Part shown: in pieces, positions 27,777 through 50,294 of the stretch
Layout: each line of letters opens with the position of its first letter
Numbering within the stretch: the stretch's first letter is position 1
Assembly: GCA_004362315.1 (NCBI GenBank)
Contig: SNWL01000004.1
Span: 1,054,001-1,118,000, forward strand
DNA: 64,000 nucleotides
Reading direction: 5' to 3'
From: Mycobacterium sp. BK086
GTDB taxonomy: Bacteria > Actinomycetota > Actinomycetes > Mycobacteriales > Mycobacteriaceae
Program-made: the position numbers and the translations under genes
Notes under the pieces: model-generated
Told to the model about the DNA's origin: nothing
Databases searched by the model: none
What the model saw: only the letters and a program-made list of their open reading frames with translations

Positions 27777-27790
27777 GTGTGGAGCAGTTC

Positions 27791-27985: not shown

Positions 27986-27988
27986 TCG

Positions 27989-28693
27989 GTGAAGAAGTTC
28001 TTCAGCCATACCCTGCTGTATCTGCACGAGACGATCGCGCTGGGCGCGGAGCGCAGTGATCGGTTCACCGAGCAGTTCACCAGCGTCTACCAGCCGATGA
28101 TGGAATCACTTGGAGCGCGGTTGTTCTCGATCTGGGAGACCACTCCCTACAACGGCCACTGGCCGCAGGTGACGATCATCTGGGAGATCGACGCTTTCGC
28201 CGACTACGCCAGGATCGGCAAGGCGCAGGCACCCGGCGGCAGCCACCGCGAGGCGTTCTCCGTCTGGACGGACTACCTCGCCGGCGTCGGCGCCTCGGGG
28301 GAGGGCCGGATCATGTACGCCGGTCGCAGCAACCGCACGCTCGCCGAGCTGAAGGACGCGAAGTTCGGTGCCGGACTGGTGATCCAGGAGATCATGGAGA
28401 CCAAGCCGGGCCGTCAGGACGACTACATCCGTGAGTTGGAGCGCCTGTACGTCCCGTGGTCGGAGTCGACGGGCAAGCGCTGGCTCGGATCATTCATCAC
28501 GACCTTCCGCTTCAACGAGGTCATCCACTACTGGGCGCTCGACGGCGACTGGGATTGCTTCGAGAACCATTACCCGTCGTGGAAGGACAGCCCCCCGGCC
28601 GAGATCGTCACCTGGATGAGCGTCGCCCCCGCACTGCGGGACGGGTGGGAGGACTCCATCCTGCAGGCCCTACCTCCGTCGCCGCTCCGATAA
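27989..28693 (+). CDS. NIPSNAP-like dimeric alpha/beta-barrel protein
   Basis: A 234-aa soluble protein made of two similar halves, each with the ferredoxin-like pattern of NIPSNAP/Dabb proteins: LLYLHETIALGAERSDRFTE with WPQVTIIWEIDAF in the first and VIQEIMETKPGRQDDYIREL with FNEVIHYWALDGDWD in the second. Such proteins often appear in P450 and hydrocarbon catabolic operons; the reaction is not known. It begins with GTG three bases after the ferredoxin stop and ends by sharing one base with the next P450 start (TAATG). Confidence 0.72.
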   Translation: MKKFFSHTLLYLHETIALGAERSDRFTEQFTSVYQPMMESLGARLFSIWETTPYNGHWPQVTIIWEIDAFADYARIGKAQAPGGSHREAFSVWTDYLAGVGASGEGRIMYAGRSNRTLAELKDAKFGAGLVIQEIMETKPGRQDDYIRELERLYVPWSESTGKRWLGSFITTFRFNEVIHYWALDGDWDCFENHYPSWKDSPPAEIVTWMSVAPALRDGWEDSILQALPPSPLR

Positions 28694-29916: not shown

Positions 29917-29917
29917 C

Positions 29918-31111
29918 TCAGCCGACGGTCGCGGGCATGGACTCCCAGCCGCGCACGGTCGACGTCGGGCTCAGCTCGGCATCGGTGAGGTCGACGTCCC
30001 ATTCCGGGAAGCGGTCGAGGATCTCGTCGAGCGCGATGCGCCCCTCCAGCCGCGCAAGGGCGTTACCAAGGCAGAAGTGGGTGCCCACACCGAAACCCAA
30101 GTGCTGGTGCGGTGTTCGGTGCACGTTGAATGATTCACTGTCCGGCCCGAACGTCCGCGGGTCGCGATTGGCGGCACCGACCAGCAGCATCATCGGGCTG
30201 CCGGCGGGCACGGTCTGCCCGTGGTAGTCGACGTCGCGCGTCACGTAGCGGCTGATGTGTGGCGCGGGCGGCTCCCAGCGCACCAGCTCCTCCACGGCCG
30301 CGGGCAGCAGCGAGCGGTCCTCGACGAGGTCGCGGCGCTGATCGGGATGCTCAGCCAAAACCTTTCCCGCCCAGCCGATCAGCCGCGTCGTCGTCTCGGC
30401 ACCCGCCGTCGCGATGACCTGGAGATACAACAGCAGCTCGTCACGACGCAGGCGCCGGACGGTGCCGGTCTCATCGGCGAACTCGGCGGTCAGCAGGTCG
30501 GTCATGATGTCGTCGGACGGATGCTCAGTGCGCCAGTCAATGAACTCCGCGAACACCTCGCCGGTGGCGATCGTCCCGTTCGGGTTCTCGGTCATCGGCT
30601 TGCCGCGCTCGGTCCGCAGGGTCGAATCACCATGGTCGACGACATGTTGCTGTTCGGCCTCCGGGATTCCCAGCAGCATCCCGATCACCTGCATCGGCAT
30701 CTGCGCGCCGAGATCCTTGACGAAGTCGAACCGACCCGTGCCGATCAGCGGGTCCAGGCAGCGCGCGGTGAACTCGCGGATGCGGGGTTCCAGCTCCGCC
30801 ACCTTGCGGGGGGTGAAGATCCGGGACAACAGCTTTCGGTGGATATTGTGGATCGGCGGGTCCTCGAAGATCAGCGTGCCGGACGGAATCTCCATGCCGG
30901 ACTTGATGATCTCCAGGATCGCGCCCCGGGCGGAGCTGAACGTCTCGTGATCGTGCAGCGCGCCGTCGACGTCGGTGTACCGGCTCAGCGCATAGAACTC
31001 GTGCTCGGGGTTGTAGTAAAGCGGAGTGGTCTCCCGGATCCTGGCGAACGTCGGGTAGGGGTCGGCGTTCAGTGCGATGTCGTAAGGGTCGTAGGCGAGG
31101 GTGTCGGTCAT
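29918..31111 (-). CDS. Cytochrome P450, paired with an alpha/beta hydrolase
   Basis: A 397-aa P450. The I-helix motif is VIATAGAETTTRL, ExxR is EELVR, and the haem loop is FGVGTHFCLGNALARLEG with Cys347. Length is normal. The ATG at 31111 overlaps the stop of the upstream hydrolase by four bases (ATGA), so the two form a translationally coupled operon. The pair is read divergently from the TetR/CAR operon, and the TAAATAAA-N4-TTGATTTA palindrome lies in the shared promoter. It probably belongs to the same regulon. Substrate unknown. Confidence 0.88.
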   Translation of the reverse strand: MTDTLAYDPYDIALNADPYPTFARIRETTPLYYNPEHEFYALSRYTDVDGALHDHETFSSARGAILEIIKSGMEIPSGTLIFEDPPIHNIHRKLLSRIFTPRKVAELEPRIREFTARCLDPLIGTGRFDFVKDLGAQMPMQVIGMLLGIPEAEQQHVVDHGDSTLRTERGKPMTENPNGTIATGEVFAEFIDWRTEHPSDDIMTDLLTAEFADETGTVRRLRRDELLLYLQVIATAGAETTTRLIGWAGKVLAEHPDQRRDLVEDRSLLPAAVEELVRWEPPAPHISRYVTRDVDYHGQTVPAGSPMMLLVGAANRDPRTFGPDSESFNVHRTPHQHLGFGVGTHFCLGNALARLEGRIALDEILDRFPEWDVDLTDAELSPTSTVRGWESMPATVG

Positions 31112-32016
31112 GTGCGGTGCCTTCCGAGGAACTCGAGAATGTCGGGCGCTGCCTGCACCCAGGTGTCGAACAGGTTGAACCGCTTGGACTTTCCCTGGGC
31201 CATCGCCTCCGATGCCCGCTCCCAGGCATCCTCGGGCCAGGGTGGATCGATCAGTTCGGACCCCTTGATCAGGCACTGAACTTCCAGGGAGGTCCGTTTT
31301 GGGTGGTTGAGGTCGTTCTCGCCGCCCCGGATGATCAGGGTCGGAACGGCGAGGTCGGTGAAGAGGGTGTCGTCGACGCCGGGGATGGTCTGGCCGGGTT
31401 TGGTGACGAACGCATTGAGCCAGCGCAACATGATGTTCAGGAATTCGTCGTCGGTGAATGCCAGCAGGCGATCACGGTTGGCCGGGTTGGCCTCGATGCA
31501 CTCCCGCCAGTCCTTGACGCCGAGCACCCCGTCCATGCCCCTGCCGCGCACGGCAAGAATGCTGGGCATCGCATAGACGTGGCCGAGCACAAACGTGCCG
31601 AAGAGTCCGCCCACGATGTTCCACAGCACCAGCCGCGTCACCTGCTGCGGAAAGAGGATGGCGGTCAGCATGGAATCGCGGGCGCCGCCGGAGCCGCCGG
31701 CGAGAATGCACGGGCCGATGCCCAGCGCGGTGATCAGCTCACTGAGGATGATTGCCCGCATGTGCGACTCGGACTCGCCGAACAACTGGATGTCACTCTT
31801 CCCGCAGTTCGGCCGGTCCCACAGCAGGACCCGATAACCACCCGCGGCCAGCGCTTCGGCCAGCGGACGCAGGTCGGGGATGTCTTTGCTGAACCGGCCG
31901 CCGGGTGTGAGCACGATGAAATCGCCTGTCGAACCGACGATTTCGTAGACGACGTTGCCGCCGCACACCTCGATGGTGTGCTCAGCCGACGGGTCGAGCT
32001 GAGGTGAAGTGGTCAT
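31108..32016 (-). CDS. Alpha/beta-hydrolase
   Basis: A 302-aa alpha/beta-hydrolase. The nucleophile elbow is LAGGSGGARDS near 110 (G-x-S-x-G). The loop DRPNCGKSDI near 70 is the usual oxyanion and cap entrance, and a late Asp in IIRGGENDLNH probably completes the triad with a later His not clearly visible. Relatives hydrolyse esters, lactones or C-C bonds. The ATG at 32016 was chosen; a GTG at 32034 is possible, neither with a strong ribosome site. It is the first gene of a hydrolase-P450 pair divergent from TetR/CAR. Confidence 0.8.
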   Translation of the reverse strand: MTTSPQLDPSAEHTIEVCGGNVVYEIVGSTGDFIVLTPGGRFSKDIPDLRPLAEALAAGGYRVLLWDRPNCGKSDIQLFGESESHMRAIILSELITALGIGPCILAGGSGGARDSMLTAILFPQQVTRLVLWNIVGGLFGTFVLGHVYAMPSILAVRGRGMDGVLGVKDWRECIEANPANRDRLLAFTDDEFLNIMLRWLNAFVTKPGQTIPGVDDTLFTDLAVPTLIIRGGENDLNHPKRTSLEVQCLIKGSELIDPPWPEDAWERASEAMAQGKSKRFNLFDTWVQAAPDILEFLGRHRT

Positions 32017-32061
32017 CGGTTGCGATGGTGACACAACCGGCGGTGCGGAGCGCCCGGTATC

Positions 32062-32081
32062 TAAATAAATTCCTTGATTTA
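32062..32081. promoter_or_regulatory. AT-rich palindrome, probable TetR operator, left copy
   Basis: The element reads TAAATAAA-N4-TTGATTTA, an 8-bp inverted repeat with one mismatch and a 4-bp spacer (TTCC). It lies between the divergent hydrolase (start 32016) and TetR (start 32110) genes and is followed by a -35-like TTGACC at 32084. A near-identical copy occurs inverted at 47987-48006, matching in 19 of 21 bases over AAATAAATTNNTTGATTTACT. A shared site in a high-GC genome strongly suggests a common regulator. Confidence 0.72.
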
Positions 32082-32109
32082 CTTTGACCTGTGGTGTTCA
32101 CTTACAACG

Positions 32110-32805
32110 GTGAGCCCAGCCAAAGACCAGCGCACCGACCGATCGTCTGTCACCCGGGACGCGCTGCTGGTGGCCGCTGAGCGGCTTTTCGCCGAGCATG
32201 GCATGCACGCGGTCTCGAACCGCCAGATCAGCGAGGCCGCCGGGCAGGGCAACAACGCCGCGGCCTGCTACCACTTCGGATCACGGGCCGATCTCCTGCG
32301 TGCGATCGAGGCCAGGCACCGCATCGCCATCGACGAGATCCGGCAACGCAAGCTGGACGAGATCACCGAGACCAAAGAACTGCGGGACTGGATCGGTGTC
32401 TTGGTCTACCCCTTCACCGAGCATCTCGAGGCACTCGGAACTCCCACGTCGTACGCGCGTTTCGCGGCGCAGGCGATGGCCGACCCCACCTACCGGGATC
32501 TGGTGGTCGCCGGTGCGTTGACCTCCGAGCTCATGCTGAAGACGGTCCGGGGGATCAACCGATGCCTGCCGGAGCGGCCGAAGCGGGTGCGTCTCGGTCG
32601 CTGGATGATGGCGTCCAATCTCCTGATGCACACCTGTGCCGAGATCGAGGGTGAGCTGGCGATCGGCAAGCCGTCGGTGAGCTCGAACTGGTCGGTGGTC
32701 GCCGAGGAGCTGATCACCGCGCTCGTCGGATTGTGGGAGGCGCCGCCCGCCCGGATCGCCAATGCAGGGTCGAGTCGCGACGCGGATTCCTCCATTTCCG
32801 TCTGA
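32110..32805 (+). CDS. TetR-family regulator of the CAR cluster
   Basis: A 231-aa TetR protein. The helix-turn-helix spans about 12-58 (RDALLVAAERLFAEHGMHAVSN, then QISEAAGQGNNAAACYHFGS). The GTG at 32110 is preferred to an open TTG at 32074, because an N-terminal extension is unusual and would overlap the operator. The palindrome at 32062-32081 lies 28-47 bp before the start and probably mediates autoregulation. It is 12 bp upstream of the CAR gene and so cotranscribed with it. Ligand unknown, but the C-terminal region is unlike KstR. Confidence 0.86.
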   Translation: MSPAKDQRTDRSSVTRDALLVAAERLFAEHGMHAVSNRQISEAAGQGNNAAACYHFGSRADLLRAIEARHRIAIDEIRQRKLDEITETKELRDWIGVLVYPFTEHLEALGTPTSYARFAAQAMADPTYRDLVVAGALTSELMLKTVRGINRCLPERPKRVRLGRWMMASNLLMHTCAEIEGELAIGKPSVSSNWSVVAEELITALVGLWEAPPARIANAGSSRDADSSISV

Positions 32806-32817
32806 GGGTGTGAAGCC

Positions 32818-35800
32818 ATGGCTTTTGTCGGCCGCAGTGATGTCAAAGACCCTGGTGCGCAACAGGAGCAGTGGGATCGGATAGCCCGCAGACGCGGACG
32901 TCTCTACGCTGAGGACACCCAGTTTGCCGCTGCCACGCCGGACGACGACGTCGCCGCTGCTGCACGACAGCCGGGTCTGCGAATCGCTCAGGTGATGGCC
33001 ACCGTCATGGAGGGCTACGCCGACCGGCCCGCCCTCGGTGCCCGTGCCAGGGATCTGACCACCGACCCGGCCACCGGACAGACAGAAGTCCATTTTCTCC
33101 CGGAGTTCGTCACCACCAGCTACCGCCAGCTGTGGGACCGGGTACGCGTGGTGGCTGCGGACTGGCACCATCACCCCGAACATCCCCTAATGACAGGCGA
33201 TTTCGTCTGCGTGCTCGGGTTCGCCAGCGTCGACTACGCGGTGATCGAACTCGCCTGTATCCACCTGGGCGCGGTCGTGGTTCCGCTGCAGACCAGTGCA
33301 CCTGCGACCCAGCATGCGCCGATCCTCACCGAAACCGGACCGCGGATTCTGTTGGCCAGCATCGAATCCCTGGACACCGCGGTCGAAGCGCTGCTCCTGG
33401 GCGCTGCCCCGCAGCGGTTGATCGTCTTCGATTACGAGCCGCGCGACGACACCCACCGGGCTCGCTTCGACGGTGCCGTTCAGCGGCTGGCCGACGCGGA
33501 CAGTCCCTTGGTGATCGAGGTGCTCGACGGGATCGCCGACTCGGCGGTGGATCTGCCCGCCGCTCCTTTGCATGTCGCGGCCGACGGCGAGGATCCGCTG
33601 GCCTGGGTGTTCTACACCTCGGGCACGACGGGCACACCCAAGGGCGCGATGCTCACCGAAAGCCTGTGCATCGGTTCGTGGTTGGCGCAATCGGATCAAC
33701 CGGTGATAACCCTCAGCTACATGCCGATGAGCCACCTCATCGGCTACGGATACGTGCTGATGACCCTGGCCAATGGCGGGACGAGCTACTTCGCTGCCAG
33801 TAGTGATCTCTCGACACTGTTCGACGACCTGGCGGCCGCTCGGCCGACGACGCTCAGCCTGGTGCCACGGGTGTGCGAGATGTTCTATCACCACTATCTC
33901 GGTGAGCTCGACAAGGCGGCGATCGCCGGCGCCGATGAGCAGGAAGCGGGCGAGCGGCTACGCGAGGACTTGCGGGAGCGCGTGCTCGGCGGGCGAGTGC
34001 TGGCCTGTGGCTGCGGCTCGGCCGCGCTGTCACCGGAGATCAAGGACTTCATGGAGTCGGTGCTCGACCAGCACCTGATGATCGGCTACTCCTCGACCGA
34101 GATCGCCGGTGGCATGCTGCTGGCCGACGAGCATGTGCTGCGCCCGCCGGTCATCGACTACAAGCTCGACGACGTCCCCGAACTCGGCTACTTCAACACC
34201 GACAAGCCTTATCCGCGAGGCGAATTGCTGGTGAAGTCGCAGCGGTTCATGGCGGGGTACTACAAGCGGCCCGACCTGACCGCGACCATGTACGACGCTC
34301 AGGGCTACTACCGGACCGGCGACATCATGGCCGAGGTGGCGCCCGACCGGCTGCGGTTCGTGGACCGCCGCAACAACGTCATCAAACTGTCCCAGGGCGA
34401 GTTCGTCGCGGTGGCCCGGCTCGAAGCGCTGTACACCAAGAGTCCGCTGATCCGGCAGATCTACCTCTACGGCACCAGCGAACGCGCCTTCCTGCTCGGC
34501 ATCGTGGTGCCGACCGATCCGTCCTCGTCAGCCTCCGCGATCGCCGAGTCCCTGCTGGAGATCGCGCACGAGAATCAGCTCAACAGCTACGAGATCCCGC
34601 GGGACTTACTCGTCGAGACCGAGCCCTTCAGCCTGGCGAACGGACTGCTCTCCGGAGTTGGAAAGTTCCTGCGCCCCAACCTCAAAGAACGCTACGGGCC
34701 GCGACTGGAAGAGCGCTACGCAGAGCTGGCCGACAACCAGGCCCGGCAGCTGCGGGCACTGCGGGCCGAGGGTACGGCCCTGCCGATCGACGAGGTCGTC
34801 GCACGCGCGGTCCAGGCTACGTTGGGGCTGTCGGCCGACAACATCGACCCGACCGCCCGATTCATCGACCTCGGCGGCGATTCCTTGTCGGCCCTGACGA
34901 TCTCCCGGTTGCTGGCCGATATCGTCGGCGCCGAGGTACCCGTCGGCGTGGTGACCGATCCCACCGGCAGCCTTGCCTCGGTGGCTGCATTCATCGAGCG
35001 ACAACGCAACTCCGCCTCGAAGATGACGTTCGGTTCGGTACACGGTGCGGGCGCTCGCGAGATCAGGGCCGCCGACCTGGCGCTGGATAAGTTCATCGAT
35101 ACCGAGATCCTGCAGGCCGCAACCACGTTGCCGCGTCCCGCCGAGGAGATCCGGTCGGTGCTGGTGACCGGTGTGACCGGATTCCTCGGTCGCTTCCTGG
35201 GCCTGGAGTGGCTGGAGCGGATGGCCGCCGTCGACGGCAGGGTGACTTATCTGGCCCGCGGCGCAGATGCCGCGGGTGCCCGCGCCCGCATCGAAGCCGC
35301 GTTGGAATCGGATCCGGCGTTGCTCCAGCGCTTCCGCGACCTGGCCGACGGCCACCTGGAGATCATCGCCTGCGATATCGGCGAGCCGGGCTGGGGACTG
35401 GACGACGCGACCTGGGCCAGGCTGGGCGAGTCGGTCGACCTGATCGTGCACCCCGCTGCGCACGTCAACCATGTGCTGCCCTATGACCAGCTGTTCGCCC
35501 CCAACGTGGCAGGCACCGCCGAGCTGATCAGGCTGGCGCTGACCACGAAACTCAAGACCATTCACTACATCTCGACGATGGGTGTCACCGCCGTCACGGA
35601 TCACATCGTCGGCGAGGAGCGCGACATCCGCCTCGAGGTGCCGGTGGTGTCGCTGTCCGCGGGCTACGCCAACGGATACGGCGTCAGCAAGTGGGCCAGC
35701 GAGGTACTGCTGCGGGGGGCTCACGACCTGTGCGCTCTGCCGGTCGCGGTGTTCCGGCCGGGCATGATCCTGGCCGACAGCCGCTACGACGGCCAGCTGA

Positions 35801-36312
35801 ACGTGCCGGACATCTTCACCCGCCTGCTGTTCAGCGTCATCGCCACCGGTGTCGCCCCGGCGTCGTTCTATCTCGGGGACGCGAGCCGGGCGCATTACGA
35901 GGGGCTCCCGGTCGACTTCCTGGCCGGTGCGATCGCCGAGGTGGGTCTGCGCGGCGGTGACGCCTTCGCGACGTACAACACCACCAATCCGCACGACGAC
36001 GGGGTGTCCCTGGACAGTTTCGTCGACTGGATCGCCGACAGCGGGTTCCCGGTCCAACGCATCGACGACTACGCCGAATGGCTGGCCCGGTTCGAGACCG
36101 CGATGCAGGCATTGCCCGAACGCGCGAAACAGCAGTCGGTGCTCACCGTGCTCGACGTCTACCGCCATCCCGGAGCGGCGGTGCCCGGCTCCCTTGTCCC
36201 GGCCGCGCGGTTCCGCGCCGCGGTCGAATCTGCGGGCCGCGAGATCCCTGGTATATCCCGCGAACTCATCGCCAAGTACGTCGACGACATGAGACTTCTG
36301 GACATGCTCTAG
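32818..36312 (+). CDS. car: Carboxylic acid reductase (adenylation-carrier-reductase)
   Basis: A 1164-aa three-domain enzyme that reduces carboxylic acids to aldehydes with ATP and NADPH. The adenylation domain (about 1-640) carries FYTSGTTGTPKGAML near 264 and YRTGDIMAE near 500. The carrier domain has DLGGDSLSAL near 684-693, where Ser689 takes phosphopantetheine. The reductase domain (about 745-1164) begins at TGVTGFLGRF near 783 and has YGVSKWASE, the SDR active-site Tyr-x3-Lys, near 955. Length and domain order match Nocardia and mycobacterial CARs such as FadD9. A phosphopantetheinyl transferase is not in this window. It lies inside the TetR-led operon with amidohydrolase and M24 genes. 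Confidence 0.93.
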   Translation: MAFVGRSDVKDPGAQQEQWDRIARRRGRLYAEDTQFAAATPDDDVAAAARQPGLRIAQVMATVMEGYADRPALGARARDLTTDPATGQTEVHFLPEFVTTSYRQLWDRVRVVAADWHHHPEHPLMTGDFVCVLGFASVDYAVIELACIHLGAVVVPLQTSAPATQHAPILTETGPRILLASIESLDTAVEALLLGAAPQRLIVFDYEPRDDTHRARFDGAVQRLADADSPLVIEVLDGIADSAVDLPAAPLHVAADGEDPLAWVFYTSGTTGTPKGAMLTESLCIGSWLAQSDQPVITLSYMPMSHLIGYGYVLMTLANGGTSYFAASSDLSTLFDDLAAARPTTLSLVPRVCEMFYHHYLGELDKAAIAGADEQEAGERLREDLRERVLGGRVLACGCGSAALSPEIKDFMESVLDQHLMIGYSSTEIAGGMLLADEHVLRPPVIDYKLDDVPELGYFNTDKPYPRGELLVKSQRFMAGYYKRPDLTATMYDAQGYYRTGDIMAEVAPDRLRFVDRRNNVIKLSQGEFVAVARLEALYTKSPLIRQIYLYGTSERAFLLGIVVPTDPSSSASAIAESLLEIAHENQLNSYEIPRDLLVETEPFSLANGLLSGVGKFLRPNLKERYGPRLEERYAELADNQARQLRALRAEGTALPIDEVVARAVQATLGLSADNIDPTARFIDLGGDSLSALTISRLLADIVGAEVPVGVVTDPTGSLASVAAFIERQRNSASKMTFGSVHGAGAREIRAADLALDKFIDTEILQAATTLPRPAEEIRSVLVTGVTGFLGRFLGLEWLERMAAVDGRVTYLARGADAAGARARIEAALESDPALLQRFRDLADGHLEIIACDIGEPGWGLDDATWARLGESVDLIVHPAAHVNHVLPYDQLFAPNVAGTAELIRLALTTKLKTIHYISTMGVTAVTDHIVGEERDIRLEVPVVSLSAGYANGYGVSKWASEVLLRGAHDLCALPVAVFRPGMILADSRYDGQLNVPDIFTRLLFSVIATGVAPASFYLGDASRAHYEGLPVDFLAGAIAEVGLRGGDAFATYNTTNPHDDGVSLDSFVDWIADSGFPVQRIDDYAEWLARFETAMQALPERAKQQSVLTVLDVYRHPGAAVPGSLVPAARFRAAVESAGREIPGISRELIAKYVDDMRLLDML

Positions 36313-36341
36313 CCCCCACATCAGCCAGTGAAGGGACATCG

Positions 36342-37523
36342 ATGTCACTACCGACCAAGCTGCAGTACCCCCCGACTGGATTCGGTGCGCCGAAGGACCG
36401 CCGCGGCCACGCCCGCGCCAGCCGTGAGCAGATCGGGCTGCCGCCCGGTACCGAGATCTTCTCGGCCGACAATCACCTGTCGGTGGCGTCGGACATCTTC
36501 TACGAGAAGTTCCCGGACCACCTCAAGGACGAGGCGCCCAGGATCTGGTACGAGGACGGCGCCTACATGGTCGGCGTCAAGGGGCAGTCGTTCGTCGTCG
36601 GCGATTTCAGTGCGGTCCTGATGCAGTACGACGATCTGCCTGGTGCGGCCACCGGGGCGGCTGCTATCGACACCCGGATCCAGGAGCTCGCCGACGATGG
36701 TGTGGACAAGGAGCTGGCGTTTCCGAATGCTGTGCTGGCCCTCTTTCACTACCCGGACAAGGCGTTGCGCGAGCGGATCTTTCGGATCTACAACGAGTAC
36801 GTCGCCGATATCCAGGCACGCTCCAACGGGCACTTCTACGGCGTCGGGCTGATCAACTGGTGGGAGCCGGCCGGCGCCAAACGCACCTTGGACGAACTGA
36901 AGTCGCTGGGCCTCAAGACATTCCTGATGCCACTGTATCCGGGGTTCGATGACGACGGCGTGGTGATCGACTACGGCTCCACCGCGATGATGCCGGTGTG
37001 GGACGTCATCGAAGAGGCCGGCCTACCGGTCACTCATCACATCGGCGAGACGCCCCCGAAGAGCCCGTGCGAGTTCGGCAGTGTCGCGGTGGCGATGATG
37101 ATCAACATCGATTCGTTCCGGGACATGTTCGCGCGCTATATCTTCTCCGGCATCCTCGATCGTCACCCGGGCCTGAAGGTCGGCTGGTTCGAGGGCGGTA
37201 TCGCCTGGGTTCCGTCCGCGCTCCAGGACGGGGAGCACGTACTGGCGTCCTACCGGCACATGCTGGACCAACCGCCGCGCCATGACATCCGCTACTACTG
37301 GGACACCCACATGTCCGCCTCGTTCATGGTCGACCCGCTCGGCCTGAGCCTGATCGACCAGATCGGCGTGGACAAGGTGATGTGGTCCAGCGACTATCCG
37401 CACAACGAGAGCACTTTCGGCTATTCCGAACAGTCGCTGTCGGCGGTGGTGGCCGCGCTGGGGCCGGAGAACGCCGCCAAGGTCGTGAGCGGAAACATCA
37501 AGAACTTCCTGGGAGTGTCATGA
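36342..37523 (+). CDS. Amidohydrolase-2-type TIM-barrel metal hydrolase/decarboxylase
   Basis: A 393-aa metal-dependent amidohydrolase of the ACMSD/gamma-resorcylate decarboxylase group. Landmarks are EIFSADNHLS near 38, INWWEPAGAKRTLDELKSLG near 165, the metal His in THHIGETPP near 230, and the late Asp in MWSSDYPHNES near 350. This family hydrolyses C-N, C-C or decarboxylates and is common in hydrocarbon and steroid catabolic clusters. The ATG start has GAAGGGA upstream and lies 29 bp after the CAR stop. Its TGA overlaps the following M24 gene by four bases. Confidence 0.82.
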   Translation: MSLPTKLQYPPTGFGAPKDRRGHARASREQIGLPPGTEIFSADNHLSVASDIFYEKFPDHLKDEAPRIWYEDGAYMVGVKGQSFVVGDFSAVLMQYDDLPGAATGAAAIDTRIQELADDGVDKELAFPNAVLALFHYPDKALRERIFRIYNEYVADIQARSNGHFYGVGLINWWEPAGAKRTLDELKSLGLKTFLMPLYPGFDDDGVVIDYGSTAMMPVWDVIEEAGLPVTHHIGETPPKSPCEFGSVAVAMMINIDSFRDMFARYIFSGILDRHPGLKVGWFEGGIAWVPSALQDGEHVLASYRHMLDQPPRHDIRYYWDTHMSASFMVDPLGLSLIDQIGVDKVMWSSDYPHNESTFGYSEQSLSAVVAALGPENAAKVVSGNIKNFLGVS

Positions 37524-39836: not shown

Positions 39837-41090
39837 CGTTCCGGCATCGCGGGTCTGCCAGAGGTTGAGCACATTGGTCAGCATCTGCAGGGGTGCGCGT
39901 AGCACCTCGTCGTGCTTGATCGCCGGGTCGAACCGCGTCATCGTCGTGGCTTCCTCGCCCAGGCGGGCGCGGATCAGCCCGGGCACGTCGAGCAGCCAGG
40001 TCGCACCCATGATCGCCGCGTACCGCACGACCTGAGCAGCCAGCGCTTCAGGCACGATCGGCGGGCCGCCGGCAGCGTGGTACTCCTTCGCGAACAGGGA
40101 CACCAGATCGTCGAAATGCGCATCCCACATGCTGGTTTCGGCCGCCGACAGGGCACCCCATAGCGCCATCGCGACGTTCAGCTGGCTGACACAGCCCCAG
40201 TCGAGCAGACCGCACCGGAGGCTGCCGTCGGCGTCGCGCCAGAACCAGGCGTTGTCGACGTTCGCGTTCCAATGGCACAGCGCGATATGGTCGGCGCTCG
40301 CGGCCAGATGCGACCACAGCGCCCGCTCGCCGGCGAGGATGAGCGGGATCTGGCTGGCGAGATCCGAAAGAAACTGTGGCTCGCGGACATTGGCTGGCAG
40401 CAGGTCAGGGTGGGTTTCGGCGAACCCGGTGAGCCGTTTCAGCTGACGCGCGAGTCTGGCTTCGTTCAGCGGTGGGCGTTCGCCGACGGTGGCCGCCTGC
40501 AAGTCGACCGGGAACCGGTCACCCACATCGTCTGCGGCTCCGCTGCGATGCCAGCCGGCCAGCTGACCGAGGGCTCTCACCACGGCGTCGTAATGTTCTT
40601 TCGGGCAGGGCATCTCGTAGTCCAAGCACTTGTGGTGCTGGGGTTCGACGCCATCGGCGCCGAATGGGATCCGCTCGGTGATCAGGATCCCGGTGCCCGA
40701 GGCGGCGTGGTAGTCCGCGAACACGGTGGTGGGCACCGTGATCGGAAACCCCGGACGCCGGGCGAGCTCGGCAAAGCGCACCTCGGGCTGCATCTGGGTG
40801 CGGCCGACGTCGCGCAGTGGGTCGTCGAGGTCGCGGGAGAACTTCGCGAACAGTGTTGTGGGCAAGTGCGGTTGAGGCCAGGTGTACTCGACGGACAGCA
40901 GCGCCTTGCGACCAGTGCTCCCGCCGCCGATCTCGGTGCATTCGGTGACGCGGGTGACGGTGTTGCCGGGCGAGAGGCTCCCGTAGGCATGCAATGCCGT
41001 CGTCAGGAATCGGCTGCCCGCCGCCGACAATGCCGCGGGATGCATCGGTAACTCGACGGCGGTGTCGTCGCCGGTTATCGCAGTGGTCAC
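39816..41090 (-). CDS. APH-fold kinase-like protein with altered catalytic loop
   Basis: A 424-aa aminoglycoside-phosphotransferase-like protein. The catalytic loop, HGDxxxxN in active members, here reads LCHWNANVDNAWFW: the catalytic Asp is replaced by Asn, while the following Asn is kept. The metal Asp is present in GLLDWGCVSQ. It may be a pseudokinase or bind rather than phosphorylate its ligand. The start is GTG. It is last in the minus-strand operon, five bases after the SDR gene, and its 3' end overlaps the convergent M24 paralogue by 21 bases. Confidence 0.78.
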   Translation of the reverse strand: MTTAITGDDTAVELPMHPAALSAAGSRFLTTALHAYGSLSPGNTVTRVTECTEIGGGSTGRKALLSVEYTWPQPHLPTTLFAKFSRDLDDPLRDVGRTQMQPEVRFAELARRPGFPITVPTTVFADYHAASGTGILITERIPFGADGVEPQHHKCLDYEMPCPKEHYDAVVRALGQLAGWHRSGAADDVGDRFPVDLQAATVGERPPLNEARLARQLKRLTGFAETHPDLLPANVREPQFLSDLASQIPLILAGERALWSHLAASADHIALCHWNANVDNAWFWRDADGSLRCGLLDWGCVSQLNVAMALWGALSAAETSMWDAHFDDLVSLFAKEYHAAGGPPIVPEALAAQVVRYAAIMGATWLLDVPGLIRARLGEEATTMTRFDPAIKHDEVLRAPLQMLTNVLNLWQTRDAGTLLAAVH

Positions 41091-41095
41091 CGCGG

Positions 41096-41860
41096 CTACC
41101 AGGTCTGCTCGGCCGCGCGCACGAGGATCTGATTCACGGCGACCCGGCGGTCACGAGTGACCATGTAGCGCACCGCATCCGCGATGTCCTCAGGCCGGAG
41201 CTTCGTCATGCCCGCGGTGCGTTCATCCAGGGCGGCCCTGGCCGGCGCCGGGAGGTGGTCACCGATCTCGGTGTCGACGGTGCCGGGTCCGACTATGCCG
41301 ACCCGCACCCGCTTGTCGATGAGCTCTTGACGCAGACCCTCGCTGAACGCGTTGACACCGAACTTCGTCAATGAGTAGACGGCCGTGCCGGGGCGGGCAA
41401 CCCAGCCGGCGGTCGAACTGATCGTGACGACGTCGGCGACAGCACGGGGCGAGTCGGCGGCCGCGGACACCAGGTGTGGCAGGGCGGCGCGAGTGGTGTA
41501 GAGGACGCCTTGGATGTTGACCGACACAAGGTCATCCCAATCCGACAGCGGTGCGTCGACGGCGGCGCCCATCCGCATCAGCCCCGCGTTGTTGACCAAG
41601 GTGTCGAGGCGGCCCCACTCGGCAACGGTCGTGTCGATCGCCCGCTGCACCTGATCGGCGAGTGTCACGTCGGCGGTGACCACAAGGGCCTGTCCGCCGG
41701 ACTGTTCGATGGCGACCCGGAGGTGCTCGAGGCGTTCCGCGCGGCGCGCCAGCAGAGCGACCTTGGCGCCGTCGGCGGACAGGGCGCGCGCGGTCGCCTC
41801 GCCGATGCCGCTGCTCGCACCGGTCACCAGCGCGACGGTCCCCGCCAAGGTGCCGGTCAT
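41096..41860 (-). CDS. Short-chain dehydrogenase/reductase
   Basis: A 254-aa classical SDR. The cofactor motif is TGASSGIG near 13-20, NNAG lies near 90, and the active site is TISSTAGW with Ser near 146 and YSLTK near 162. The sequence has RRAERLEHL after strand 2, with Arg favouring NADP. Probable role: oxidising or reducing an alcohol or ketone in the pathway. It begins inside the last four bases of the upstream CoA-transferase gene, giving translational coupling, and is followed at five bases by the kinase-like gene. Confidence 0.86.
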   Translation of the reverse strand: MTGTLAGTVALVTGASSGIGEATARALSADGAKVALLARRAERLEHLRVAIEQSGGQALVVTADVTLADQVQRAIDTTVAEWGRLDTLVNNAGLMRMGAAVDAPLSDWDDLVSVNIQGVLYTTRAALPHLVSAAADSPRAVADVVTISSTAGWVARPGTAVYSLTKFGVNAFSEGLRQELIDKRVRVGIVGPGTVDTEIGDHLPAPARAALDERTAGMTKLRPEDIADAVRYMVTRDRRVAVNQILVRAAEQTW

Positions 41861-44205
41861 GTAGTGGACGCCGATCGGTGGCCGGCGCCGAGGATGTCTG
41901 TCAGCACATAGTCATTGTCCTCGCCGAGATCGGGTGCGCCCCGTTCGACGGTGACCGGCGCCCGAGACAGCAGCCAGGACGCCCCGAGGATGGGCCGCTG
42001 GCCCTCTCGATGGTCGGAGACGAAGCGGAAGGTTCCGCGTTCCCATAGGAGCGCGTCTTCGATGACCTCCACGGCGGACGCGCTCTTGGTGGCGGGCACC
42101 CCGACGGCGCGCAGCCGTCGGGCCAGAGCCGCGGCGTCGTGAGGTGCGGTGAGCGCGGTGATCGCCGCGTCCAGTGAGTCGATGTTGGCCTGTCGGTCGG
42201 CGGCGGTGGCGTAGCGGGTGTCGGCGAGCAGGTCGGGGGCGCCGAGTTCGGCACAAAGACAACGCCATTCGTCGTCCGCACCGATGGCGATGCTGATCCA
42301 CTGGTCGCCGCAGGGGTAGCAGCCGTGGGGCGCGAAGTCGGGATGCCGATTGCCGTCCGGTAGCAGCTGCACACCGGTCATGGAGTATTCGGCGAGCCGG
42401 TCGCCGACCATCGACGAGAGCACTTCCACCGCGGAGATGTCGACGAACTGGCCCTGGCCCGTGCGCTCGCGGTGCAGCAGTGCGGCGATCGCCCCGACCG
42501 CGGCGGCGGCTCCCACCGTGGAATCCCCGTAACGCATGTTCGCACCCAATGGCGGGCCGCCCTCGTAGCCGACGAGTGACGCCAGCCCGGCCAGCGACGA
42601 GAACGACGGGGCGTAGCCCGTCTGATAGCCGAGTGGGCCGTCGTTGCCCCACATCTTGATCGACACCGAGATGATGTCGGGTTTGACAGCCGCCAGATCG
42701 GCGTAGCCGAGGCCCTGACGTTCCATCGCGCCCGGCCGCAGATTGTTGAGCACGATATCGCTGTCGGCCACCAGATCGCGCAGCGCCGCCATGCCCTGCG
42801 TCGTTTTGATATCCAGGTCGACACTGAGGATCTCGGGATTGATGCTCAGGAAATAGGGCGCGTGGTTGATATCGGTTCCACCGTAAGCCCGCATCTCTTC
42901 GGGCAGTGCCGAGCACTCCACCTTGATCACCTCGGCGCCCAGCAGCGCCAACAACTTGCCGGTGTAGGGACCAGCCCAGACTTTGGTGAGTTCGACGACC
43001 CGGACACCCTCCAGCGGGCCGCCGCGTCGCCGTGCCGGTTTCTTGAGTTGAGGGGCTCGGACGGTGGGACGGTCCCGCGGTGCCGAGAGGCTGCCGACGA
43101 CCTCCTCGGTGTGCTGTCCGAGGGTTGGTGCCGGAGTGCGGATTTCAGCCGGGGACGTGGTCAGCGAATAGGGTGCTCCCGGGTAGGCGGCGGTACCTAG
43201 CACGGGGTGGGTGACGTCGGTGAAGAACCGGCGATGGCGGTACTGCGGCGAGCACAGCAGATCGTCGGCGCCGTTGACGGGAACCAGGGCGACGCCCAGC
43301 CGTTGCGCGGCCTCGGCCGTGGCCTCGCGTGGCCGGTCGGAAATCCAGGCAGCGAAGTGTTCTTTGAATGCGGCGACCTTCTCCGGGGTGACGGAGAATT
43401 CCAGCCAGTCGTCATCGAAGGCGTCGAGCCAGTCGGCATGGTCGAGCAGCTCTTCGAGCGCGAGCCAGTGGCCGCGGCTGGTCATGTAGAGGTAGACGAA
43501 ACCGTCTGCGCAGGCGAACATCGACGCGGGCCCCTGCTGGTCGAAGTCGTCGCGGGTGTTCTCCGGCGACACCTCCCCGGTGATGAACCGGCCAAGGATG
43601 CAGTCGGCGCGGGCCACCATGACCGCGTGCTGGGAGATATCGATGAATTCGCCGTCACCGGTGTGCATCTGGCGAAAGAGTGCCGCCATGACGCACAGCG
43701 CGGCGTCCAGGCCGGCCTCGTAGTCGGGGGAGTAGCGGCCAGGACCCTTCAGCGGTGGCAGGGCCGGATCGGGGTGACTCGGTGTGTGGTGGCCCCAGCC
43801 GCCGGCCTGGAAGATGTTGATGCTCTTGCTGTTCTGTAACTCTGGGGGAGCGCTCGCCCCGAACGGCGTGATCGAGCAGAACACCAGGCCACGACGGTTC
43901 GGCGGTTCTACTGGATGGTGATCGTCGATCACGGCATCCGCGCTTGCGATCAGGTCCTGAACCGCGGGACTGTGCGCGTCGAGGGCGACCGAGCGCTTGT
44001 TGGTGTTCAGGTACGCGAACAGTCCGCTGCGTTCGGGATCGGATGCGATGTCCAGCAGGGGAGCCATGGCCCGGGTGGGACTACCCCGCCCGGGCCGCTC
44101 CACCTTGACGACGTCAGCGCCGAGGTCGGCCAGTAGCTTGCCGCAGTACTCGCCGGCCACCCCTTCAGCCAGTTCGACGATCCGGAACCCGTTCAGCGTC
44201 GCCAT
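41857..44205 (-). CDS. Double-domain class III (CaiB/BaiF) CoA-transferase
   Basis: A 782-aa protein made of two complete CaiB/BaiF units in tandem, at about 1-370 and 400-782. Each half has the N-terminal RVVELxxxxAGPYxGKLLALLGAEVIKVE-like signature (halves read RIVELAEGVAGEYCGKLL and RVVELTKVWAGPYTGKLL). Candidate catalytic Asp residues lie in RYSPDYEAGLDAAL and RYGDSTVGAAAA. Normally two identical chains interlock as a dimer, so the fusion would form one interlocked unit. Role: moving CoA between acyl groups. It lies 12 bp after the crotonase gene and overlaps the SDR gene by four bases. Confidence 0.86.
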   Translation of the reverse strand: MATLNGFRIVELAEGVAGEYCGKLLADLGADVVKVERPGRGSPTRAMAPLLDIASDPERSGLFAYLNTNKRSVALDAHSPAVQDLIASADAVIDDHHPVEPPNRRGLVFCSITPFGASAPPELQNSKSINIFQAGGWGHHTPSHPDPALPPLKGPGRYSPDYEAGLDAALCVMAALFRQMHTGDGEFIDISQHAVMVARADCILGRFITGEVSPENTRDDFDQQGPASMFACADGFVYLYMTSRGHWLALEELLDHADWLDAFDDDWLEFSVTPEKVAAFKEHFAAWISDRPREATAEAAQRLGVALVPVNGADDLLCSPQYRHRRFFTDVTHPVLGTAAYPGAPYSLTTSPAEIRTPAPTLGQHTEEVVGSLSAPRDRPTVRAPQLKKPARRRGGPLEGVRVVELTKVWAGPYTGKLLALLGAEVIKVECSALPEEMRAYGGTDINHAPYFLSINPEILSVDLDIKTTQGMAALRDLVADSDIVLNNLRPGAMERQGLGYADLAAVKPDIISVSIKMWGNDGPLGYQTGYAPSFSSLAGLASLVGYEGGPPLGANMRYGDSTVGAAAAVGAIAALLHRERTGQGQFVDISAVEVLSSMVGDRLAEYSMTGVQLLPDGNRHPDFAPHGCYPCGDQWISIAIGADDEWRCLCAELGAPDLLADTRYATAADRQANIDSLDAAITALTAPHDAAALARRLRAVGVPATKSASAVEVIEDALLWERGTFRFVSDHREGQRPILGASWLLSRAPVTVERGAPDLGEDNDYVLTDILGAGHRSASTT

Positions 44206-44217
44206 GTTACGGCTCGG

Positions 44218-45186
44218 TCAGGGCTTCTTACGTCCGGAGTGGCTCAGGCGCCATTCGGGCGGGAAGTTGAGGTCGTTGTCCTTGACGACGTTGTTCAGGC
44301 CCTTCTCGAACGTACCCTCGGTCAGGTCGGGGTAGTTGGGGCGATCGTTGGTCATCATCGGCAACATGCCCTCGACCACACCGGTCAGCAGGCTGCCGAA
44401 GTACTCACCCTTGTGCTGCTTGTAGAGCTCGAGGAACGTCTTCTGCACCACGACGGTATCGGTGGGACGAGACTTCGAACACGCCATCGCGTACTTCAGC
44501 GTCTCGGCTTCGAGATCCTCGCGTGGCACCACACTGTTGACGAAGCCGCAGTCGTACATCTCTTTCGCGCTGAACGGCCTTCCGGTGAACAACATTTCGG
44601 AAAACTTGCGCAGGCCCATGGTCTCGGCCCACCACCACAGCCGGGGTCCCCAACCGACGTAGCGGAACGCGGGGTGCCCGAACAACGCGTCGTCGGAGGA
44701 CACCACCAGGTCCGCATCGCCGGCCTGATAGAAGTGCCAGCCGTAGCAGTAGCCCTTGGCCTCCACGATCGTGACCTTCTTGCACTCCTGCAGCGGCCGG
44801 TTTCCGGCGCGAGCCTTGGCGTAGTGATCGGTCAGGGTGTAGAGGTAGCGGTAGGAATCCCCCGGCGGGTACTTCACGCTCTCATCGTTGATCGAAAGCT
44901 CATGCAGCAGAGGAACTCCCGGATTCTCCAACATCTCGCGCTGTTCGGGCAGGTCGCCGCCGCTACCGAAGTCGTTGCCTTCGCCGCGGATCACCACGAC
45001 CTTGACGTCGTCGTCGACATTGCACTTATGGATCATGTCGGCGAAGTTCTGCCGCATGCCCATGGTGGTGGAGTTCAGTTCATCGGGCCGGTTGAACGTG
45101 ATGTAGGCGATCCGATTCTCGATGTCCTTCTCGAACTTGATGAAGGGTTCGGCTTCCTTCTTCATCTCTTCGTAGTCGTGGTTCAT
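44218..45186 (-). CDS. Crotonase-superfamily protein lacking the two usual catalytic glutamates
   Basis: A 322-aa crotonase-fold protein. The N-terminal strand IAYITFNRPDELNSTT and oxyanion-hole region GEGNDFGSGGDL fit the family. In typical enoyl-CoA hydratases the two acidic residues lie in a GGGxEL-type segment and in FGxPE; here they read GYCYGWHFYQAGD and FGHPAFRYVGWGP, so both Glu are absent. Crotonases with different residues include ring-cleaving beta-diketone hydrolases and CoA hydrolases. The ATG at 45186 was chosen because the longer frame is unsupported; AGGAG lies about ten bases upstream. It sits 12 bp before the CaiB gene. Confidence 0.83.
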   Translation of the reverse strand: MNHDYEEMKKEAEPFIKFEKDIENRIAYITFNRPDELNSTTMGMRQNFADMIHKCNVDDDVKVVVIRGEGNDFGSGGDLPEQREMLENPGVPLLHELSINDESVKYPPGDSYRYLYTLTDHYAKARAGNRPLQECKKVTIVEAKGYCYGWHFYQAGDADLVVSSDDALFGHPAFRYVGWGPRLWWWAETMGLRKFSEMLFTGRPFSAKEMYDCGFVNSVVPREDLEAETLKYAMACSKSRPTDTVVVQKTFLELYKQHKGEYFGSLLTGVVEGMLPMMTNDRPNYPDLTEGTFEKGLNNVVKDNDLNFPPEWRLSHSGRKKP

Positions 45187-45281
45187 CGTGATTGCGCTCC
45201 TGTCGTGACGGTGATCATGTGAGCATGCTGGTTGTAACATAACGAGATTCGGGCGAAGCCAAGAACAAATCGGTCCACGAT
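45187..45281. promoter_or_regulatory. Inter-gene segment in the minus operon, possible internal promoter
   Basis: This 95-bp segment between the unknown protein and the crotonase gene is the only gap longer than 12 bp inside the minus-strand operon. On the minus strand it contains TTATGTTACAACC, which could hold a -10 element. No copy of the 20-bp palindrome lies here. The evidence is only the gap size and a local rise in A/T. Confidence 0.3.
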
Positions 45282-45794
45282 CTACCCCTCGCTCGCCGTC
45301 GTGAGGATGTGCTGCCGCCGGGGTGCCTGCCGCATTCGACCGGTTCTCCACTGGCAGAGAAGTTCTGAGGTGATGGCGACCGATTCGAGGCCCGCCGCCG
45401 TCCGCGCCTGGTCGAGGAAGAACCGGGTGGCTCGGCTCACGGGGATCTCCACACCCCGCGCATTCGGTCGCCCGGCGTCCCAGGCCAGAACCTCGATCGA
45501 CGGATTGTCGATGGCCTTGTCGACCCAGCGCTTGATGGCGTCGTCGGTGCGATACAGACTGTCCGACACCAGCACCGAGCGCAGTAACGTGTCCGCCGCC
45601 GGGTCCGGTGACAGCCCCTCGGCGCGCGTGGCTCCGAGAATACGCAAGGAGAGCTCGCACTCAGCGTCGTCGTGCACCGCGAAAACCCGCACGTCCCAAC
45701 CGGTCAGCGATCGATCGCAGATCAGCCCGCCCGCATGCTCGACCGCATCGGCAACGGTCTCGGACACGAGGTCCATGCGGAACCGGGTCAGCAT
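45282..45794 (-). CDS. Protein of unknown function in the P450-crotonase operon
   Basis: A 170-aa protein with no signal peptide or membrane segment. It contains [25 protein letters not shown] and [22 protein letters not shown] and has the mixed alpha/beta look of a soluble regulator or binding protein, but I do not recognise a family. The ATG at 45794 lies seven bases inside the upstream SDR gene, which argues for translational coupling and against a spurious frame. A downstream ATG six codons later is an alternative start. Confidence 0.68.
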
Positions 45795-46741
45795 GCGGGC
45801 TCGACGGCCGGAAAGGTGACCTTACTCAGGGCTTCCGACTGCTGCCACAAGCGGCCGCACTCGTCCACGTCCAGTGTCAGTGGTGGAAGCTTCGCGAATG
45901 TGACACCGCCGCCCGCGGTCTCGTAGAGCCCGCGAGGTCCGTAGTACGTCGCCCCCGCAGCATCCGGCGACACCGCGGCATACAGCGTCGGCTTGATGCC
46001 CTCGTCGACGTCGAGCCACATGAACGGCAACAGCTTCCAGGTCAGCTGGGTGAGCCGGCTACTCAAAGTCGGCTTGTCCAGGCCGTAGGACGCCCCGCTG
46101 AGCAGATTGGTCTTGCTCAGCCCGGGATGTGCGCCGTTGGAGGTGATGCCCCACCCGCCTGCCCGGCTGCGCCGGTCGAGCTCGAAGGCGAACATCAGCT
46201 GCGCCAGCTTGGCGACTCCGTAGGAGTACATCGCCTTGTATTCGCGCTCGGCGTTGACGTCGTCGAAGCGGATATTGCGTTGAGTGGCCGCGATGCTGCT
46301 GACGGTCACAACCCGTCCGCCGCGCAGCAGCGGCAGCAGCCGTCCGGTCAGCGCGAAGTGCCCCAGATGATTTGCGCCGAACTGTAGCTCGAACCCGTCA
46401 CCGGTTTCCTGACGAGTCGGCGGGGTCATCACCCCGGCGTTGGCGATCAGGATGTCGACCGGTCGGCCGTCGCCCAGAAGCCCGTCGGCGAACGTTTCGA
46501 CACTCGCCAGTGAGGCCAGGTCGACGATCTTGACATCCACCTTTGCCGCCGGGTTCGACTGCCGGATCTGCGCTGCCGCGGCCTCGCCCTTAGAGGCGCT
46601 GCGCACCGCCATCACGACATCGGCACCGGCAGCCGAAAGACGCTTGGCCAGGCCGAAACCCAGGCCGCTGTTGGCGCCGGTGACGACGATGTGCTTGCCG
46701 GACAGATCCGGCACGGTCAGCGTCAGGTCCGGGCGGTTCAC
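45788..46741 (-). CDS. SDR-family oxidoreductase, retinol-dehydrogenase-like
   Basis: A 317-aa extended-length SDR of the retinol dehydrogenase/WWOX-like group. The cofactor motif is TGANSGLG near 21-28, NAGV near 100, and the active site is SSIAATQRN with [10 protein letters not shown] near 170 (Tyr-x3-Lys). The group often oxidises lipid-like alcohols. The start is a GTG overlapping the P450 stop as GTGA, so it is coupled to the P450: hydroxylation followed by alcohol oxidation is a natural pairing. It overlaps the following gene by seven bases. Confidence 0.85.
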
Positions 46742-47958
46742 CAGGTCACCGGAAGTTCGTGCATGCCGTAGGACAGCGCATCGTGCTTGAACGGCAACTC
46801 GTTGACCGGCCCGACCTGCTGCAGTGTGGGAATGCGCTTGAACAGGGTGGGCAGCACGATCTGCAGTTCCATCCGGGCCAGCTGGCCGCCGACGCAGGAA
46901 TGGCGGCCGTACCCGAGCGCGACGTTGGGGCCGTCCTCACGATCGAGCTTCAACCGGTCGGGGTTCGGGAACTGACGGGGGTCCCAGTTGGCCGGGGCGA
47001 CGTCCAGGATGATGCCTTCGCCGGCGCGGATGACTTCGCCGCCCACCTCGATGTCCTCGGTGGCGATGCGGCGCTGGCCGGTCTGGATGATGCTGCAGTA
47101 CCGCAGCAGCTCCTCGACGGCGGTGGCGATGACCTTGGGATCGTCGGTGTCGCGCAGCATGGCCAGCTGGTCGGGATTGTCCAGCAGCGCCGCGATGCTG
47201 ACGGCGATCTGGCCGGCGGTGGTCTCGTGTCCGGCGATCAGCACCCCGGTGGCCAGCTGGGCTGCCTCTTTCAGCGAGATTTCCTCGTCCTTCACCCGCT
47301 CGGCGAGGTCGGAGACCAGGTCTTCGGCGGGGTCGTCCATTTTCTTCTCGAGCAGCGACTTGAGGTATCGGGCAAGGGCGCCAGCACCTTTCGCGGCATC
47401 TTCGGCCGAGGCATTGCGGGCCATACCCATGTTGGACTGCTCTTGGAAGAAGTCGGCGTCCTCGTAGGGCACGCCGAGAAGGTGGCTGATCACCAACGAT
47501 GGAACCGGCAGGGCGAGCGCGCTGACCAGATCGGCGGGCTGCGGCCCGGCCAGGATCGCGTCGATGTGCTCGTCGACGATCTTCTGCACCGCGGCCCGCA
47601 AGGCCTCGACCCGCCGGAACGTGAACGGCTTGGACAGCATGCGCCGGTAGAAGGTGTGCTCCTCGGCATCGGAGGTGAACACCGATCGGGGCCGCCGGTG
47701 GACCGTCGACTTCATGCCTTCGTTCCAGTGCGGGTAACCCTCCTTGCGGTCGTCGACGCTGGCTCGGCCGTCGGCGAACAACGCGCGGATCGCCTCGTAC
47801 CCGGTGATCAGCCACGGTGTGCTGCCATCCCAGATCCGGACGCGGGCCATTTGCGCGGATTCGTTGACGCCCAACGACTCTGGCGGTGGTGCGAACGGCT
47901 TCCCCGCGGCGCGACTCATCGGGAAATCGGGCACAGCCGACGCATCAACCGCAGTCAC
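46738..47958 (-). CDS. Cytochrome P450 at head of the minus-strand operon
   Basis: A 406-aa P450. The I-helix motif is [13 protein letters not shown], ExxR is EELLR, and the haem loop is [15 protein letters not shown] with Cys355. The usual Phe at the start of the haem loop is Leu here. It resembles CYP105-type enzymes in layout. The GTG at 47958 was chosen by the conserved N-terminal Pro-rich part. The 20-bp palindrome at 47987-48006 lies 29-48 bp upstream, and the SDR gene is coupled downstream. No ferredoxin is adjacent; the ferredoxin at 27791 could serve. Confidence 0.88.
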
Positions 47959-47986
47959 AGGTCTCAGTGAACAGCACCGGGCGCAG

Positions 47987-48006
47987 TAAATCAATCAATT
48001 TATTTG
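47987..48006. promoter_or_regulatory. AT-rich palindrome, probable TetR operator, right copy
   Basis: The element reads TAAATCAA-N4-TTTATTTG on the plus strand (spacer TCAA). Its reverse complement matches the palindrome at 32062-32081 in 17 of 20 bases and 19 of 21 when shifted one base. It lies 29-48 bp before the P450 start and 25 bp after the molybdopterin oxidoreductase stop. Position and near identity suggest it is bound by the TetR encoded at 32110. Confidence 0.7.
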
Positions 48007-50280: not shown

Positions 50281-50294
50281 CTGGACTTCCTTTC

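Follow-up and report, generated by a model that had tools for sequence, protein, structure and literature searches.

Introduction

KstR and KstR2 are autoregulated TetR-family regulators of catabolic regulons in mycobacteria. Together with BkaR, they are presented as palindrome binders in a published account (PMC4482099). Here we analyzed a stretch of 64,000 nucleotides (nt) from Mycobacterium sp. BK086 (contig SNWL01000004.1, positions 1,054,001 to 1,118,000 of the forward strand), referred to as the window throughout, in which a tetR gene (32110-32805, plus strand) and two copies of an AT-rich dyad accompany two operons that point toward each other. Like the KstR and KstR2 regulons, the window combines a TetR with a palindrome at its own promoter and at that of a predicted coenzyme A (CoA)-dependent degradation operon. 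It differs from them in its enzyme set and in having only three exact sites in the genome, and its operator appears to differ from theirs. None of the strings AAATCAA, TTGATTT or TTGACTT occurs in the main text of PMC4482099.

From sequence comparison, we consider it likely that this TetR is an autorepressor acting at both promoters and that it controls an oxygenase-rich degradation module. The regulon is new and of a known type, a TetR with its palindrome, attached to an undescribed enzyme module. A first-pass annotation had called the gene combination unfamiliar, and no description of the cluster or its operator was found in the open literature searched, as judged by titles and abstract openings.

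Two operators of one design

The plus-strand operon runs TetR, carboxylic acid reductase (CAR), an amidohydrolase-fold protein and two M24 proteins (M24a and M24b), and the minus-strand operon runs cytochrome P450 (P450c), short-chain dehydrogenase (SDR2), a weak open reading frame (ORF), crotonase, double CaiB, a second dehydrogenase (SDR1) and a kinase-fold protein (unkH). The two meet at 39816-39836. Family scans of the window proteins bore out this order, which the first-pass annotation had given for both operons; the TetR itself scores 39.5 bits against PF00440 TetR_N (cutoff 24). The dyads lie where they were first described, at 32062-32081 and 47987-48006, and agree in 19 of 21 bases. 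The pattern AAATAAATTNNTTGATTTACT matches without mismatch at 32063-32083 (plus) and 47985-48005 (minus), and at up to three mismatches it has two matches in the window and none in 100 dinucleotide shuffles. The relaxed dyad AAATNAANNNNTTNATTT has just three exact sites in the 6,929,846-base genome, so the genome-wide scan proposed in the first pass placed two of three at the suggested promoters. The third, C2:952844-952861 (L043:8845-8862), about 133 kb left of the window pair, sits at a promoter, with a DUF7064/7065 gene on one side and an alpha/beta hydrolase gene on the other; no such third site was found in the close relatives G215, G239 and G177, which have two exact sites each. The hydrolase gene is followed by PhoX and a luciferase-like gene, and the site is a candidate extra target. 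Allowing one mismatch to the relaxed dyad adds one genome site (C7:214638), and allowing two adds ten more.

Both window copies read TTGATT-17 nt-TTCACT-7 nt-GTG, one promoter design used twice. The left operator (32062-32083, plus), consisting of the dyad TAAATAAATTCCTTGATTTA and CT, carries the -35 box TTGATT at 32074 in its right half; the putative -10 hexamer TTCACT lies at 32097-32102, 17 nt past TTGATT and 7 nt ahead of the TetR GTG at 32110. In the right operator (47985-48006, minus), TTGATT begins at 47994 on the minus strand, and the putative -10 hexamer TTCACT (47966-47971), an element also present in L076 and L068, is followed 7 nt later by the P450c GTG at 47958, a start that lengthens P450c by 13 codons. 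This geometry, and the presence of the right site in G177 and G215 as well, support the earlier proposal that both outer promoters are targets. The right dyad is invariant in this genome, G177 and G215 amid varying intergenic bases, and the left dyad is invariant in this genome and four relatives, again with varying flanks. Sites, conservation and geometry are read directly from the DNA. Since the right half of the dyad covers the -35 box, bound TetR would be expected to keep polymerase off the two promoters. TTCACT stands at the window spacing in all but one of 52 cluster I loci; in 17 loci of the paralogous cluster II, introduced below, the hexamer is TTCACT in 8 and TTGACT in 9. The start codon comes 6-7 nt past the hexamer, both in the two window copies and in the consensus of cluster I, which suggests leaderless mRNAs; the tetR message is probably of this kind.

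The left copy had also been proposed to serve the divergent gene pair, an alpha/beta hydrolase (31108-32016, minus, with ATG 32016 chosen as start) and the cytochrome P450 P450b (29918-31111, minus, with CYP130 as nearest solved chains). Its position fits, but no mirrored promoter was evident by eye in the five-sequence alignment of the left site, where a search for a divergent hydrolase/P450b promoter gave nothing convincing.

Linkage of the dyad to tetR

To follow the dyad across relatives, we retrieved mycobacterial loci by their M24a and used the best 80 of 143. Of these, 70 have tetR on the M24a strand, while the other ten gave no tetR match in the stretch covered. A dyad with 0-1 mismatch to the relaxed form lies just upstream of tetR in 69 of the 70. 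The reversed dyad pattern, which has the same composition and served as control in genome and locus scans, gave no site in any of the 80. A second sample, partly overlapping the first and made up of the top-scoring tetR locus of each genome (this genome and genus genomes), gave a best dyad with 0 or 1 mismatch within 300 nt in 37 of 37 loci, and the reversed pattern there was never better than four mismatches.

Across 98 genus genomes, the exact site occurs in 30 (38 sites in all), against zero matches for the reversed pattern. Twenty-seven of the 38 sites stand beside a tetR homologue: 22 from the 29 loci opened, the window's left site, and the second sites of G069, G215, G246 and G177, placed by coordinates. 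Three more are of the right-hand type (this genome, G215 and G177) and six lie elsewhere; the second exact sites of G249 and G239 were left outside these classes. Co-occurrence of an exact site with a TetR of at least 60% identity, compiled by hand from the site and TetR scans, gave 26 genomes with both, 4 with the site only, 4 with the TetR only and 64 with neither (Fisher p = 1.6e-15, a value that overstates the association because the genomes are related and hence not independent). The TetR-only genomes are G112, G029 and G221, which carry a one-mismatch site, and G226, which carries the AAGT form. On C7 and C8 of this genome, two tetR paralogues likewise carry variant dyads at their promoters, with one and two mismatches. 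Thus the first-pass assignment of the dyads to the TetR at 32110 is strongly supported, as judged from this linkage.

Five exact sites in other genomes (L062, L066, L074, L081 and L082) are near no block gene. In L066 and L074 the dyad lies ahead of a similar limonene-epoxide-hydrolase/SnoaL-like gene adjoining an M42 peptidase, a possible regulon member in those species. The L062 site is pure A/T, and both window dyads stand out as AT-rich stretches directly ahead of genes in otherwise GC-rich DNA, as would be expected if the dyads were AT-rich promoter sequence or nucleoid-protein sequence (e.g., Lsr2-like binding) with symmetry arising by chance. We find this scarcely credible, given the lack of exact matches to the reversed same-composition pattern and a sequence and spacing to tetR that are nearly fixed across the genus.

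Enzymes of the block

The gene content and ligand residues of the block are plain in the sequence, and several first-pass labels changed once the residues were inspected. The amidohydrolase-fold protein (36345-37523, plus; PF04909 83.5 bits, cutoff 26.4) has PtmU3 (2e-27) and DitZ (1.8e-20) as nearest solved structures. Rather than an amidohydrolase, as first labeled, it is probably a dinuclear-metal oxygenase: it keeps metal ligands of the PtmU3/AibH2 type, with D42, H44, H231/H232, E283, D350, H353 and E355 invariant in 59 of 59 sequences (positions taken from the PtmU3 alignment, with no direct alignment to AibH2). The residues that align with the metal site of PtmU3, its extra Glu313 among them, are invariant; the metal ligands of AibH2 and PtmU3 are those given in PMC7782822. 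Unlike PtmU3 and AibH2, the window protein sits with an M24 pair, a crotonase and a CaiB; no AibH1-type or Rieske partner was found among the block genes scanned.

Both members of the M24 pair noted in the first pass belong to PF00557, but only one has its metal site. M24a (37520-38728, plus) keeps the metal-binding pentad D, D, H, E, E in 80 of 80 sequences, at positions assigned from M24 motifs. In M24b (38718-39836, plus) the first Asp and first Glu are replaced in 79 of 79, while all but one of the 79 retain the His, making it a probable non-metal partner. A similar replacement is seen in unkH (39816-41090, minus), which has no Pfam family above its cutoff. The earlier label of "kinase-like" holds for its phosphotransferase (APH/choline-kinase) fold but not for its active site, as the catalytic Asp of HxD, located through the H-x-D-x4-N motif, is Asn in 42 of 42 sequences; in this it differs from the known members of the fold, including the 25-hydroxy steroid kinase 9fsg.

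CAR (32818-36312, plus; 1164 amino acids; NF041592 1617.6 bits, cutoff 1300) combines the adenylation, carrier and reductase domains in a single polypeptide. The first pass counted it in the defining combination; it is present in the window but optional rather than core, being found in 15 of 80 loci (some cut short) and absent in G177. The double-domain type III CoA-transferase (CaiB/BaiF; 41857-44205, minus) matches PF02515 in two stretches (539.9 bits). Its C-terminal half is nearest to subunit B of benzylsuccinate CoA-transferase and the best subunit-A stretch falls in its N-terminal half, so that what are separate subunits A and B in that enzyme (9fn0) form one fused chain here. The best solved match to P450c (46738-47958, minus) is CYP105Q4 of Mycobacterium marinum (8swl), with 586 bits over 393 residues, the full length. 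According to PMC6237146, none of an extensive substrate range shifted the spin state of CYP105Q4.

The remaining minus-strand genes are SDR2 of the PRK05854 subfamily (45788-46741; NF004513 440.8 bits, cutoff 282), SDR1 (41096-41860) and the crotonase-family protein (44218-45240), whose start could be ATG 45240, 45186 or 45165. The small ORF at 45282-45794 (minus), earlier listed as unknown, is of doubtful status: it has no family match, and only 77 of its 170 residues were matched (60%) in the close relative G177.

Proposed control and its alternatives

In the model we favor, TetR, presumably as a dimer, would repress its own gene through the dyad TAAATnAAnnnnTTnATTTA. The left dyad would act over the -35 box of the promoter for tetR, CAR, oxygenase, M24a and M24b, and the right dyad over that of the same-design promoter for P450c, SDR2, crotonase, CaiB, SDR1 and the kinase-fold protein. 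Bound TetR would block RNA polymerase at both, and an inducer, most likely the substrate or a CoA-linked or oxidized intermediate, would free TetR and turn on the two operons together. We infer binding, repression and the inducer from sequence.

Several observations weigh against this model. Four genomes have the exact site and lack a TetR of at least 60% identity (G266, G223, G249 and G052); G249 and G052 have a more distant tetR beside the site, and G266 and G223 gave no TetR match at E<=1e-45. In L186, the exception among the 70 loci, tetR is present with no site. Outside the genus, 9 of 16 TetR loci (L025-L040) have no site within two mismatches, so a dyad-tetR rule in other genera was rejected; ten neighbor proteins from six of the other-genera loci included no block family except oxidoreductases. 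Genome-wide, 14 sites at up to two mismatches compare with 6 for the reversed control; looser matches alone therefore mean little, and the C8 and second C7 sites described below count only through their position. The textbook mycobacterial -10 element is TANNNT, from which TTCACT departs. As to metabolism, a purely oxidative route fits poorly because CAR catalyzes a reduction. In eight testable loci outside the window type (L130, L131, L139, L151, L154, L158, L170 and L171, where one strand carries both P450b and crotonase and 500 nt or more precede P450b), the P450b/crotonase operon, which we assume to be headed by P450b, has no site within three mismatches in 500 nt in any of the eight. Site-based control of the crotonase/CaiB operon in all relatives was accordingly rejected (0 of 8 loci with a site), and control of the crotonase-side half is a local feature. 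The C7 tetR paralogue counts on the same side: its promoter bears a nearly identical dyad, and its product could share or own the window sites.

This paralogue and the one on C8 raise the alternative that the dyads are read mainly by the C7 or C8 TetR, or by several jointly as one cross-wired regulon. The C7 paralogue (55% identical) begins just after the one-mismatch site C7:214638 and the C8 paralogue (49% identical) just after a two-mismatch site, both sites being built like the window dyads; the DNA-binding helix QGNNAA.(C/G)YHFG differs little among them, and C8 also encodes a 70% homologue of the divergent hydrolase. We regard this alternative as unlikely, since within the genus the half-site follows the TetR cluster, TTGATTT in cluster I and TTGACTT in cluster II. 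At base 16, all 51 distinct cluster I sites have T, and 17 of 18 cluster II rows have C (the odd row duplicates the cluster I locus L163), a split that is not an independent test because closely related genomes share history. The C8 paralogue, the third TetR of this group, has a degenerate dyad and lies about 4 kb from the hydrolase homologue (L042:9684-10292 and 14380-15258).

Cluster II is the core with its own TetR and dyad, found on C7 and in many of the 80 loci, and M24a of either cluster occurs in 74 of 98 genus genomes (E<=1e-60). On C7 (L041, C7:205000-224999) it comprises P450, SDR, TetR, P450, oxygenase, M24a, M24b, crotonase and a distant double CaiB, with two dyads at 0 and 1 mismatch to the AAR form. 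The second, between the P450b homologue and an SDR, has one mismatch to the AAR form and two to AAATNAA. A general second site in cluster II was rejected, as 18 loci had none within three mismatches (only 234 nt were scanned in L121, and L163 was excluded as an artefact). In L163 one tetR is split into two overlapping matches (L163:8880-9493), which suggests a frameshift or diverged stretch.

The first pass had described a two-operon, two-site regulon and proposed conservation in other mycobacteria as a check. Regulator and sites stand, and TetR, dyad and core recur in mycobacteria, but the whole layout is confined to close relatives: L108, L110 and L111 have the window gene order (L111 without CAR and P450b) and L109 is similar. 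The right-hand site is seen in this genome, G177 and G215, and also in L111, which is taken to be the G177 contig; in G239 a second exact site lies 16.75 kb from the first. When the 80 loci were scanned over their whole length, L109 and L111 alone had sites with 0-1 mismatch in addition to that at tetR. On this comparison, the double operator belongs to the window's relatives. Many other loci have P450c directly behind tetR, often together with SDR2, and the crotonase-CaiB-SDR1-unkH operon converges from the opposite side, siteless in the testable loci. This arrangement, together with spacing and hexamers identical to the left promoter and a layout limited to few relatives, is what one would expect if the right site were a promoter copy carried along when P450c-SDR2 moved from behind tetR, no longer relevant for control. 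Nevertheless, the right site is unchanged in three genomes whose intergenic bases differ, and in G112, G029 and G221, where tetR and crotonase were the sole block genes found between conserved neighbors in the stretches examined, a one-mismatch site persists at both; we therefore give the relic explanation very little credence. In L109 a second tetR is also preceded by a dyad; the first 5 kb of this locus (L109:1-5205, Mycobacterium sp. OTB74) hold this second, opposite tetR and three dyads before the block, possibly a rearrangement intermediate.

Proposed pathway and older core

A catabolic reading of the block is plausible. An aliphatic or alicyclic compound, perhaps a terpenoid-like one, would be oxidized to an acid by the P450s and SDRs, CaiB would form the CoA ester of this acid, the PtmU3-like dinuclear-metal enzyme would hydroxylate the ester, and crotonase and M24a, with M24b as non-metal partner, would cleave or hydrolyze the hydroxylated product. 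The substrate and every catalytic step are proposals of this kind, as is the order in the first-pass annotation, in which hydroxylation would be followed by oxidation, activation and cleavage. The terpenoid hint is weak: it derives from a single enzyme, through its closest relatives PtmU3 and, going by the name, DitZ.

Three genomes from another family in the same class share the gene order oxygenase, M24a, M24b, crotonase, double CaiB, with 46-57% identity for the first four proteins, 28-30% for CaiB and P450 relatives nearby. G022, from another genus of the same family as the window, has the same core at 59-69% identity (CaiB 30%). In none of these core stretches was a dyad within two mismatches or a TetR match at 1e-12 found. 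The conserved ligand residues and this recurrence of the core order speak for the module. M24a occurs in 32 of 394 genomes of the class (E<=1e-75), mostly in the window's genus. Tentatively, the core may represent an undescribed degradation pathway in which the oxygenase hydroxylates a CoA ester and the M24 pair, one metal-bearing and one metal-free, cleaves non-proteolytically, and to which mycobacteria added a dedicated TetR and operator, orphan CYP105Q-type P450s and, in some of them, a kinase-fold protein lacking its catalytic Asp; we hold this as one possible history.

Around the block, three P450 genes lie within 4.6 kb (26535-31111), and those at 26535 and 28456, with the small ORF at 27989 between them, are kept beside the block in G112, G029 and G177. 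On the other side (48031-51726), a molybdopterin oxidoreductase, a second TetR and a two-domain acyl-CoA thioesterase adjoin it in G177, G112 and G029. The window also carries an APH-family phosphotransferase gene (23041-24126) that is above the Pfam cutoff (121.5 bits), unlike the Asn-bearing 39816-41090 protein.

It is of interest for mycobacterial biology that the regulator-operator pair is conserved in many mycobacteria. A P450 of the CYP105Q type, whose nearest studied relative showed no response to an extensive substrate range, is now set in a defined operon and regulon, and the few amidohydrolase-fold oxygenases gain a candidate member. Two conserved proteins, M24b and the kinase-fold protein, are flagged as having catalytic residues replaced in a fixed manner. 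Knowing what induces the TetR would give a lead to the substrate on which the module as a whole acts.

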